A program made the position numbers and the translations under genes. From Bacteroidales bacterium (GTDB lineage: Bacteria > Bacteroidota > Bacteroidia > Bacteroidales > UBA932), in the NCBI GenBank assembly GCA_017428945.1, contig JAFRPW010000046.1:52388-116387 (forward strand): a DNA stretch of 64,000 nucleotides. Reading direction: 5' to 3'. The first letter of the stretch is position 1; each line of letters opens with the position of its first letter. Shown one piece after another: positions 38,536-42,003 of this stretch. The notes below the pieces were generated by a model that ran no database searches, was not told the DNA's origin, and saw nothing but the letters and a program-made list of their open reading frames with translations.

Positions 38536-38624
38536 TGGAGAGATGCTCGAGTGGCTTAAGAGGCACGCCTGGAAAGCGTGTATACGCCAAAAGCGTATCC
38601 CGAGTTCGAATCTCGGTCTCTCCG
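38536..38624 (+). tRNA. tRNA-Ser (anticodon GGA)
   Basis: Acceptor GGAGAGA pairs with TCTCTCC; the anticodon arm CACGC-CTGGAAA-GCGTG gives GGA, reading TCC/TCT. A long variable arm (TATACGC...GCGTATC) confirms a class II serine tRNA. T arm is CGAGTTCGAATCTCG. Discriminator G; CCA is not encoded. Length 89. Confidence 0.97.
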
Positions 38625-38630
38625 CCCCTA

Positions 38631-38674: not shown

Positions 38675-38934
38675 GCGGCCACGTTTTCCCGTGTTTTCGT
38701 GGCCTGGCGTGACACCCCTGTCACCTGCGGCCACGCTTTCCCGCATTTTCGTGCCCTGGCGTGACGCCCCTGTCACCTGCGGCCACGCTTTCCCGCATTT
38801 TCGTGCCCTGGCGTGACATGCCTGTCACCTGCGGCCACGTTTTTCCGTGTTTTTGTGTCCTGGCGTGACGCTCTTGTCATCCGCGGCCATAACCTCGTGG
38901 CCATCAAGGCCACCGAGGGGACAAGGCGCGCACT
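38675..38934. repeat. 52-bp tandem repeat array (four units plus a partial fifth)
   Basis: Units start at 38675, 38727, 38779 and 38831 with a decayed fifth from 38883. Each contains GCGGCCACG, a middle CCCG segment and GGCGTGAC then GTCACCTGC. Units 2 and 3 are nearly identical; 1 and 4 diverge in a paired way (GTG for GCA). GTGAC/GTCAC arms and, in unit 1, GGCCACG/CGTGGCC arms allow hairpins. There are no unique spacers and no coding signal. It fills the gap between tRNA-Ser and the convergent zinc-motif gene. Confidence 0.85.
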
Positions 38935-38950: not shown

Positions 38951-40735
38951 TTAAAAAATCAGGTTCCAGAGCCAAAGGACAACTTTCCAAAGCCATTTGA
39001 AGATGGATATGAGAAGGAATATACCCATCACAAGCACTATGAGCGCAAGCCTTATCAACTGCCATGAGAGGTATCCTACCCAGCCTGTGAGAACTGAAAG
39101 GCCTAAGTAATTGGCAGCCATCAGGACTGCAAGGACTCCGAGGGCGATCAGAAGGTACTTGCCCATCCCGAACAGGACGTATGTGAATACCGACCCATGG
39201 CGTTTCCGGCTATGGTCTTCATTATTTATCAGGACCTTGATGAACCAGAGGGCGATCAGGAACACGACACACTGCATGGCGGGCAGCCAGCCGTACGGAG
39301 GCCAGGTGGGGTCGTTGGTGAAGAAGACGTACCTGGCAACCGGGTTGAGGTCGCTGTAGAAGTTGTACAGGAACGGGGTCACGAAAAGGGCTATGAGCCA
39401 GAACGTGAGGTCCGTTCCAAGGTTGTACAGGGTATTAAGGTGCTTGTTCACCATCATGCGGAGGCTGTTTATGCGCGCTCCGCTGCCGTAGACGTTGAGG
39501 TCTTCGGCCTGGTCCAGGAGTTCCCTGGCCTTGATGGTGCCAAGACCGCCAAGTTTCCTGTCGGCCTCCTTGAGTATCTTGTCGGCGTACTCGGTGATGG
39601 GGGAGACGCCGGCCATGAACTTGTCCTCATAGATGACGCCGTTGTAGCGCTTACCCTTGTAAGTGTACTCTACCCACCAGGTCTCGCAGCGAAGGATATC
39701 GGCAAGCTGGAAGAGGATGTGGCAGGTGTCGTTGACCCTTCCTGCGTGCGTCACTATCATCGAGTCCAGCTTTGCGGCCATCTCACTCTCTCCCGAGAAG
39801 ATACCCTTGCCAATCGAGGGGGCCTGGAACTCGAACAAGCGCTCTCCCGTGTAGTGGCCCCTCTTGTCCATAATCTCTGCCACGCCGGCTACCTTCTCGT
39901 CGTGGAAGTAGGCGGTGAGGAGGTTGTCCTTGAGTTCCTGGTCTATGGAAAAGCAGTGGACGTTACGTCCCTTGCCCTCGCAAACCTTGCAGGTAATGCT
40001 TCCGCGCCCGTGACACTGGGAACAGGTCTTTGTTCCCTTTCCGCCGCAGGAGGAGCAAGTCTTCTGCCCTCTGCCGCTGCATGAGTAACAGGTGTGTTTG
40101 CCCGAACCTCCGCAGGAGCCGCAGGAGACATACCTGTAGGCTATGCGGGTGGAATAGATAGGCGTGTAGCCTTCGTATCCGGATATGTAGCGCTCGGAAT
40201 ACGATTCCTGCTTCTTGCCGCTTCCGCCGCAGGACGAACATGAAGAATAACCGCGTCCGCCGCAGGAACTGCAGGTGAGGTGACCGCTTCCGCCGCAGTT
40301 GGAGCAGGTAACGTCGCCGCTGCCCTGACAGGTGGGGCAGGTGACAGAGCCCTGACCGCGGCACGGCTCGCAGGTCTCCACATGGTGTGAGCCAGTTACC
40401 TCGAACGACTTGCCGTTGTGGACGAACTTCTCCGTAGTGAGGAGGCTATACGACCAGGGGTTGATGTCCGATGCCTTGTAGATACTTCTGGCTCCGTAAG
40501 ACGCATTGTTGTAGGGATATTGCTTTGAGCTGATGGGACGGTTGTCAAACTGGGTGTGAAGCTCCACGACGTAGATGGGGCAGAGTTCATACTTCTCCAG
40601 TTTGATCTGGTCTCCATAGTTGCCGAAGGGATGTCCCTTGGACGAGGCGGCATACTGGTTCACCAGGTCTTTCACCCTGTCGCGGGCAGCCTGGTCAATG
40701 GCAAGGATTCTGTTTCTCAGGTATCTGTCTTCCAT
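38951..40735 (-). CDS. Membrane protein with ten DnaJ-type CxxCxGxG zinc motifs
   Basis: Not a known DnaJ: there is no J domain. The 594-residue product has an N-terminal domain (1-120), then CxxCxGxG motifs whose first cysteines fall at 122, 133, 144, 155, 166 and, after a 28-residue insertion rich in Tyr and Ser, at 205, 216, 227, 238 and 249. The spacing is exactly 11 residues within each block of five. A soluble domain follows (about 258-430) and then about four membrane helices to the C-terminus (starting LGTDLTFWLIALFVTPFLY). The motifs should bind about five zinc ions. It is coupled to an upstream lipoprotein gene (2-base gap). Function unknown; a thiol chaperone or scaffold role is inference. 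Confidence 0.85.
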   Translation of the reverse strand: MEDRYLRNRILAIDQAARDRVKDLVNQYAASSKGHPFGNYGDQIKLEKYELCPIYVVELHTQFDNRPISSKQYPYNNASYGARSIYKASDINPWSYSLLTTEKFVHNGKSFEVTGSHHVETCEPCRGQGSVTCPTCQGSGDVTCSNCGGSGHLTCSSCGGRGYSSCSSCGGSGKKQESYSERYISGYEGYTPIYSTRIAYRYVSCGSCGGSGKHTCYSCSGRGQKTCSSCGGKGTKTCSQCHGRGSITCKVCEGKGRNVHCFSIDQELKDNLLTAYFHDEKVAGVAEIMDKRGHYTGERLFEFQAPSIGKGIFSGESEMAAKLDSMIVTHAGRVNDTCHILFQLADILRCETWWVEYTYKGKRYNGVIYEDKFMAGVSPITEYADKILKEADRKLGGLGTIKARELLDQAEDLNVYGSGARINSLRMMVNKHLNTLYNLGTDLTFWLIALFVTPFLYNFYSDLNPVARYVFFTNDPTWPPYGWLPAMQCVVFLIALWFIKVLINNEDHSRKRHGSVFTYVLFGMGKYLLIALGVLAVLMAANYLGLSVLTGWVGYLSWQLIRLALIVLVMGIFLLISIFKWLWKVVLWLWNLIF

Positions 40736-40737
40736 GG

Positions 40738-41262
40738 CTACTGCTTTTTAGGTGAAACGAAGAAAGCCTTTACCACCCTTATCGTGAAGATGATCACAAA
40801 GAGCAGAAGTACTATCATGAAATAGATTGTGAGAGAAGGACTGTAACCTTCTCCCGGAAGGCTCTGACCGGTTATCACTATGCGCTCCATAAGGTTGGGG
40901 CGGGAGTCTGCGAGAGCCGTGGAATCCGCCTTGGCGGCTTTCTTCTCGGCCTTCTCCTTGTCCAGTTTCTCTTCTTTACGGAGCTTGTCCGCATATTTCT
41001 GCCGGGCTCCTTTGTCGGATGACTCCTTGTATGCGGCGCTGGATTCCGTGAACAGTTTGCCGAAGGATATCCTCTCGAACGGGGATGCCACCTTCGCTGC
41101 CGCGGACTTTGTAAAAAGGGAATCGACCGGAACCGCCTGGTCACGGGTCCTCAGGGCCTCCTGCTGCAAGGGATCCGTGATCTTCTCCCTCTTGTGCTTG
41201 GAGCAGGATACGACACCCAGGGCAGTCAGGGCAATAATTAACAATAAGCGTAACCTTTTCAT
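40738..41262 (-). CDS. Lipoprotein-like protein with coiled coil and C-terminal membrane helix
   Basis: Family not recognised. The 174-residue product has a lipobox (ALGVVSC), a charged region with a Lys/Glu-rich coiled coil (YADKLRKEEKLDKEKAEKKA), and a C-terminal membrane helix (LTIYFMIVLLLFVIIFTIRV) with a basic tail. A lipid anchor at one end and a helix at the other is unusual and suggests it spans or tethers membrane space. It is the first gene of the operon with the zinc-motif protein, so the two likely act together. Confidence 0.75.
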   Translation of the reverse strand: MKRLRLLLIIALTALGVVSCSKHKREKITDPLQQEALRTRDQAVPVDSLFTKSAAAKVASPFERISFGKLFTESSAAYKESSDKGARQKYADKLRKEEKLDKEKAEKKAAKADSTALADSRPNLMERIVITGQSLPGEGYSPSLTIYFMIVLLLFVIIFTIRVVKAFFVSPKKQ

Positions 41263-41352: not shown

Positions 41353-42003
41353 ATGGACCGGCACGTAGACTGCCATTGCCACATACTTCCGGGGCTGGAC
41401 GACGGCGCCCGGAGCATGGAGGAATCCGTTAGCCTTGCCAGAAAGCAGGCAGGCTGGGGGTTCCGAAAGGTTGTGTGCACTTCCCACAGGGTGGGAAAGT
41501 ATCCCAACCAGCCGCAGCAGGTCATAGAAACCTGCGGGCGGCTGCAGGAGCAGCTGGACAGGGAAGGAATTCCTCTTGAGCTTACTCCGTCAATGGAGTA
41601 CCGGCTTATTCCTGAAACTTGGCCTGAGACCTTGGAGAAGGGGTGGCTGCTGCCATGGGAGGGAAATCACATACTTATAGAACTGCCAATCCACAAGGCA
41701 AGCAGGATAGGGGACATCGTACCGGAAGATGAGATTCGGCGGCTGCTGGACATGGGTTACCAGCCGGTTCTTGCCCATCCGGAGAGGTATCTGTATCTGG
41801 ATAAGGAGCGATATTTGAGCCTCAAGGAGGCAGGCGCCCTGTTCCAGAGGAATCTGGGCTCATTGGAGGGCCTGTACGGAGAAGCCGTAAGTGTAAGGGC
41901 TGAGGCTCTTCTCTCAGAAGGCCTTTACGACCTTCTGGGCACAGACCTCCACAACATGCAGTATGCTGAATTCTTCGATTCTATTTTCCCCTGGTCCTGG
42001 TGA
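41353..42003 (+). CDS. CpsB/YwqE-type PHP-fold tyrosine-protein phosphatase
   Basis: Metal-dependent phosphatase of 216 residues, cytoplasmic. The N-terminal metal motif is DCHCHILPGLDDGARS (residues 6-21), and LAHPERY and GTDLHNMQY provide further histidine and aspartate ligands. In Gram-positive bacteria CpsB dephosphorylates the kinase that controls capsule length. The window has a Wza/Wzz pair at 30-34 kb that it could serve, although no tyrosine kinase is seen. It stands alone and faces a beta-barrel gene. Confidence 0.88.
   Translation: MDRHVDCHCHILPGLDDGARSMEESVSLARKQAGWGFRKVVCTSHRVGKYPNQPQQVIETCGRLQEQLDREGIPLELTPSMEYRLIPETWPETLEKGWLLPWEGNHILIELPIHKASRIGDIVPEDEIRRLLDMGYQPVLAHPERYLYLDKERYLSLKEAGALFQRNLGSLEGLYGEAVSVRAEALLSEGLYDLLGTDLHNMQYAEFFDSIFPWSW

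Follow-up and report, generated by a model that had tools for sequence, protein, structure and literature searches.

We identified in uncultured gut bacteria of the Bacteroidales a conserved pair of genes, one of which encodes a membrane-tethered protein that carries a DnaJ-type zinc domain and lacks a J domain, and the other a lipoprotein. The cysteine motifs of the larger protein lie in two equal blocks, a pattern that suggests the two arms of one long hairpin. In many relatives the pair is associated with an island of kinase, PP2C, FHA and AAA genes. From these features we infer a zinc-bearing fold, a membrane topology and a possible role of the pair in signaling.

The window (the whole stretch of DNA that was analyzed, 64,000 nucleotides) comes from a Bacteroidales genome assembly that is 97% complete. 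The pair and its parts are located in the window as follows.

38951..40735, minus strand: gene for the 594-residue putative zinc-hairpin protein with ten CxxCxGxG motifs (open reading frame and orthologues)
40373..40735, minus strand: N-terminal domain (residues 1-121), without a credible match to any known family
40217..40372, minus strand: cysteine block 1 (residues 122-173), with five motifs spaced 11 residues apart
40124..40216, minus strand: Tyr/Ser-rich insert between the blocks, residues 174-204; proposed hairpin tip, at its presumed position
39968..40123, minus strand: cysteine block 2 (residues 205-256), likewise with five motifs spaced 11 residues apart
39419..39967, minus strand: C-terminal soluble domain (residues 257-439), without a credible match to any known family
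38954..39418, minus strand: membrane part, residues 440-594, probably four helices (hydropathy and charge; the first helix by eye)
40738..41262, minus strand: 174-residue lipoprotein partner (lipobox Cys20 by eye; C-terminal hydrophobic segment)

Cysteine motifs of the 594-residue protein

The first cysteines of the CxxCxGxG motifs stand at residues 122, 133, 144, 155 and 166 in block 1 and at residues 205, 216, 227, 238 and 249 in block 2, as the preliminary description of this DNA had read them. The motifs hold 20 of the 25 cysteines of the protein, the remaining ones being at positions 52, 261, 338, 350 and 489. Such an arrangement is not expected by chance, as 10,000 shuffles of the protein gave at most one CxxCxGxG motif (mean 0.008).

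Searches of Pfam and NCBIfam found no J domain, in agreement with the preliminary description. All matches were below the cut-offs of these libraries, and those to DnaJ fall on its cysteine-rich part. The match to PF00684, the four-motif cysteine-rich domain, reached 12.3 bits against a cut-off of 32.7. No family in Pfam, NCBIfam or the PDB spans the whole layout of the protein.

Motif number and block symmetry

The ten motifs stressed in the preliminary description are not a constant of the family. Among 31 family sequences, 14 have three motifs in each block (3+3), 11 have 5+5, five have 6+6 and one has 5+4, so the motif number is equal in both blocks in 30 of the 31. These sequences include 28 different ones; further carriers (L040, L045 and L060, for example) were omitted as near copies or overlaps. 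The count kept CxxC starts between residues 60 and 320, and the eleventh, overlapping CxxC of L048 was dropped. The one unequal sequence (L034) shows CPNRC, a Cx3C, at the place expected for the fifth motif. The 21 loci on named contigs all belong to the 3+3 or the 5+5 class, with one additional, overlapping CxxC in L066. When the cysteine region was excluded from the tree, five changes of count state were counted, L034 accounting for one of them.

Regularly spaced patterns are uninformative on mirroring. Mirrored steps were found in L050 (11,11,11,10 / 10,11,11,11; permutation fraction 0.016) and L059 (11,19 / 19,11; 0.069), and also in two other cysteine proteins, L103, which is near-palindromic (0.0016 with one outer motif left out), and L010, with a step of 13 at both ends, these fractions being those of several patterns tried without correction. 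In L051, L053-L058 and L126 the mirroring is not exact, and odd numbers of CxxC motifs occur in L102 (13) and in the full L103 (15). Covariation of mirrored motifs is not significant, its level being reached by 2 of 6 pairings and by 13 of 120 pairings.

The four motifs of DnaJ pair 1-4 and 2-3 around two zincs, and among solved structures our motif region matches the DnaJ zinc domain 1exk best (E 0.002 and 0.0008). Because it is the symmetry of the blocks and not the count of ten that is conserved, and because of the mirrored steps, the DnaJ pairing and the match to 1exk, we suggest that the two blocks form a single antiparallel hairpin, one arm each, with 3, 5 or 6 rungs of zinc. The domain would then be a DnaJ-type cysteine-rich one that has been extended to this number of rungs. 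A pair of equal blocks with a loop between them is better read as one long hairpin than as a stack of independent motifs. If this reading is true, the DnaJ zinc domain can be extended by matched pairs into an arm of variable length that works on membranes, away from Hsp70. The relation of rung number to metal load, reach and function would be directly testable in the lengths that occur in nature (3+3, 5+5 and 6+6).

Several other cysteine-repeat proteins were observed. A short protein of G028 (L010:1201-1680, plus strand), with a similar open reading frame in L007 (G005), has a signal-peptide-like stretch and ten CxxC motifs with palindromic steps (13,11,11,11,10,11,11,11,13), and is possibly an exported zinc hairpin. 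The L102 protein (L102:8139-9896, minus strand) is fused to a C-terminal TerB domain (E 7e-8), and the L103 protein (L103:7493-8986, minus strand) passes the BSD2_CRD cut-off.

Flanking domains and membrane part

The profile searches of the N- and C-terminal domains that the preliminary description had proposed returned no credible match to a named family. In Pfam there was nothing credible for the N-terminal domain with 18 members (best E 0.026, in one member of the 18) or for the C-terminal domain with 13 members (best E 0.075, in one of the 13). In the PDB the N-terminal domain had no match and the C-terminal domain nothing credible, the best (E 0.53) being a designed protein. Both domains contain invariant residues in the family alignment. 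Among 18 aligned sequences the residues that lead into the first motif include an invariant S116 and an almost invariant G115, and the exit from the last motif is conserved among the closer members only.

Compared with DnaJ, the profile of the N-terminal domain gave a probability of 0.6% and that of the C-terminal domain 0.1%, so the client-binding C-terminal domains of DnaJ are not detectable here. We rejected the reading of the protein as a DnaJ paralogue, given that both flanking domains are without DnaJ similarity. The full profile matched DnaJ with a probability of 97.7%, on which we did not rely, the displayed alignment consisting of 25 columns outside the cysteine part.

The C-terminal membrane helices noted earlier correspond to hydrophobic stretches at residues 481-505, 516-553 and 552-590. 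A probable further stretch, at about residues 440-460, was recognized by eye in the alignment. No signal peptide is visible by eye in the translation, and the loop at residues 506-515 has three K/R and two D/E. Together these weakly favor a cytoplasmic location for the cysteine domain.

The lipoprotein partner

The lipoprotein open reading frame ends 2 nt upstream of the gene for the 594-residue protein. It has the lipobox VVSC20 (by eye) and a strongly hydrophobic C-terminal segment. With an N-terminal lipid and a C-terminal helix, the lipoprotein would be anchored twice, once at either end.

The partner was sought at 31 loci (the window, 21 named and nine unnamed, a different set from the 31 sequences of the motif count) by a script that accepted an upstream open reading frame if it had an EALRTR-type stretch and its C-terminal part was hydrophobic. 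It is present at 29 of the 31, of which 28 were found by the script and one, L081, was missed by the regular expression. At L078 the expression matched at the wrong place, yet the open reading frame there is the partner by blastp. The L096 partner has no lipobox cysteine. The 141-residue open reading frame upstream at L095 was not counted as a partner, and at L126 the script found no partner open reading frame upstream. The partner lipoproteins have a conserved KREKITDP..EALRTR..PVDSLF stretch, and 12 aligned partners keep the KREKITDP-EALRTR region and a YSPxLTxYF membrane segment. The pairing with a lipoprotein that bears a C-terminal helix, first noticed in the window, is therefore conserved.

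Both genes are under purifying selection. For the gene of the 594-residue protein dN is 0.17 and dS 1.5-1.7 against four loci, which give two distinct sets of values and are therefore in effect two relatives; for the lipoprotein gene dN is 0.20-0.21 and dS 2.3 or saturated against two loci. A scan for promoters and terminators gave site counts within one standard deviation of shuffles.

The gene upstream of the pair is divergent (41353-42003, plus strand) and by eye resembles a CpsB-type PHP phosphatase. On the other side, a 52-bp unit repeated 4.1 times in tandem (38675-38889) is situated between a tRNA-Ser gene (38536-38627) and the 3' end of the gene for the 594-residue protein.

Association with a kinase/PP2C/FHA/AAA island

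The two genes had been described as a two-gene system. The pair is indeed conserved, but it often does not stand alone, as a PP2C gene adjoins it in 11 of the 21 named loci, and at most of these 11 FHA, AAA or kinase genes are visible as well. In G009 (L082) the order is TerB, two small proteins, a zinc ribbon, a kinase, a triple AAA protein, a zinc-ribbon-FHA protein, PP2C and the pair. The small proteins (122 and 195 residues) are without a Pfam match, the kinase is a Ser/Thr kinase with a peptidoglycan-binding domain, and the AAA, FHA and PP2C proteins were named from the copies in L076. The 6+6 genes of G585 and G598 also adjoin an island of this kind, which is oriented the opposite way. 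PP2C is on a different contig from the pair in six carriers (G698, G623, G006, G761, G692 and G757).

When 20 carriers were searched, 14 had a PP2C-type match and 13 an FHA match. Taking two draws of 400 genomes of the genus as the same set, we found a PP2C-type match (E <= 1e-10) in 19 of the 28 genomes that carry the pair versus 43 of the 372 others (Fisher p 7e-11, uncorrected for kinship), and at E < 1e-40 in 17 of 28 versus 30 of 372. Nine of the 28 carriers, including the window's genome and its closest carriers G448 and G643, are thus without a PP2C-type match, and 43 genomes have one without the pair.

Seven islands were read in genomes without the pair (L112-L118), and they differ in what follows PP2C, so this slot is variable. 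It is occupied by DUF4062, RCK-like and DUF1963 (YwqG) genes in three of them (L113, L115 and L116), by a gene for an M48 peptidase-TerB protein in one (L112:10572-11774) and by other genes in the remaining three.

The island was not found in the window's genome. Searches of that genome gave no match for the island PP2C, for FHA or for Pkinase, and only weak matches for the triple AAA protein (best E 1e-6, 31% identity). In G448 and G643, which are near it on the tree, FHA and PP2C are likewise absent, and G448 has one kinase match. In the window's genome the pair thus works alone or with other partners. The only TerB match there is a 246-residue protein (L131:1321-2061, plus strand) with a C-terminal J domain by eye, which we take to resemble DjlA.

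Distribution of the family

The family of the 594-residue protein is patchy and, in these samples, centered on one large genus. A profile of the N-terminal domain found it in 28 of 400 genomes of the same genus. In the order, a C-terminal domain profile (three sequences) found it in two of 393 genomes, G194 and that of the window, and in the class a wider N-terminal domain profile found it in two of 345, G1055 and again that of the window. Among named bacterial contigs there were 21 loci, all titled Bacteroidales or Bacteroidia and many from ruminants, in a scan that required one of two C-terminal domain peptides and therefore misses divergent members. Plasmids were rejected as carriers, the sole match being a weak one in Halobaculum to the cysteine region only.

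Possible function of the pair

We tentatively prefer the reading that the pair, with its putative zinc hairpin, is a membrane-bound sensor or adaptor that passes a signal to cytoplasmic phospho-signaling machinery. The two proteins would form a unit in the membrane, with the cysteine domain probably in the cytoplasm, although the charges of loop 506-515 lend this topology slight support. Motif i of block 1 would face motif 2n+1-i of block 2, with one zinc for each facing pair, giving five rungs in the 594-residue protein and three or six in relatives. The Tyr/Ser insert would lie at the tip of the hairpin, and the N- and C-terminal domains would come together at its base, anchored by the C-terminal helices. 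The lipoprotein would be held by its lipid and its helix, with the remainder in the periplasm. An envelope, metal or thiol-redox signal could then be passed to the cytoplasm, where in many relatives the receiver may be the Ter-like Ser/Thr-kinase/PP2C/FHA/AAA island, whether beside the pair or elsewhere in the genome. The TerB and kinase/PP2C genes of the island hint at a role in stress or conflict of the Ter type. It is rather unlikely that the pair is a new kind of transmembrane device altogether, in which a modular zinc ladder that grows by matched rung pairs (3, 5, 6) sits on the inner membrane, is linked to the periplasm by the doubly anchored lipoprotein and is read by a Ter-like kinase/phosphatase/FHA/AAA complex through zinc release or thiol oxidation.

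The main rival to the sensor or adaptor is a J-less membrane holdase or thiol chaperone, the zinc arm of which would bind unfolded or oxidized membrane clients and hand them to an AAA machine. This is possible, if somewhat doubtful. Excerpts of one paper describe plastid FIP as a membrane-anchored, J-less protein that has CxxCxGxG repeats and binds FtsH5, an AAA protease, and say that J-less CxxCxGxG proteins stabilize clients without Hsp70 (PMC5915565). In excerpts of another, ZnJ2, which has no J domain, prevented aggregation but was also seen to cooperate with DnaK (PMC5818400). The triple AAA protein of the island would suit such a hand-over, but it has no close match in the window's genome, and the domains with which DnaJ binds its clients are not detectable in our protein. 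The variation of motif number among 3, 5 and 6 per block, which capacity would follow, and the recurrence of zinc ribbons in the island could also be accounted for by a zinc store or metal buffer, an arm that only holds zinc and whose length tunes the capacity. We consider this very improbable, as it does not explain the invariant residues in both flanking domains, the presence of a lipoprotein partner or the genomic surroundings. The variable slot after PP2C could mean that the pair is an interchangeable module of a conflict or defense island, its place being filled otherwise elsewhere, and the island kinase and AAA proteins do match the kinase and IetA models of PADLOC. These matches may be at the domain level only, however, the pair also occurs without the island, and within the pair PADLOC gave the lipoprotein no match and the 594-residue protein a single weak one (PDC-M01B, E 3.5e-4, residues 46-176); a role as such a module seems improbable.

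Comparison with known systems

DnaJ (type I Hsp40, 1exk), whose zinc domain is known with two zinc centers, shares the CxxCxGxG zinc motifs with the 594-residue protein. The DnaJ of L006 has four motifs at 17/26/14, whereas our protein has ten, 11 residues apart, lacks the J domain and any detectable counterpart of the DnaJ C-terminal domains, and carries membrane helices.

The preliminary description knew of no described protein with this layout. In the family libraries searched this stands for the layout as a whole, but in general terms plastid FIP, as far as the excerpts describe it, is similar: CxxCxGxG motifs, no J domain and a membrane segment are found in both. FIP, ORANGE (DnaJE1) and BSD2/ZnJ2 of plastids are J-less CxxCxGxG proteins like ours. 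FIP has two motifs and ZnJ2 four, as against ten here, and a lipoprotein partner is unmentioned for the plastid proteins in the text consulted. In titles and abstract openings of the open-licence literature there was no description of the pair, and the only such entry joining CXXCXGXG and Bacteroid- concerned a Sinorhizobium DnaJ.

The islands of the relatives resemble the TerY-P triad and Ter islands in that a single run of genes includes a Ser/Thr kinase and PP2C together with TerB and zinc ribbons. The triad consists of TerY, a kinase and PP2C, according to excerpts of PMC4978471. The islands differ from it in the presence of FHA and triple AAA genes, which are situated between the kinase and PP2C in L082, L083 and L085. 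We found no TerY-type vWA among five L082 proteins and the AAA, FHA and PP2C proteins of L076, a scan that covered the best 25 of 56 families for the L076 AAA protein and in which two of the five L082 proteins had no match of any kind. A kinase-kinase-phosphatase module with antiphage activity has been described, in excerpts that leave these cysteine proteins unmentioned (PMC11341870). The pair was rejected as a known defense system, the weak match given above being the only one in PADLOC.

The pair ties two uncharacterized domains and a lipoprotein family to a kinase/phosphatase island of rumen and gut bacteria. The pair is real and conserved and is absent as a unit from the family libraries, and its cysteine domain is a lengthened form of a known kind.
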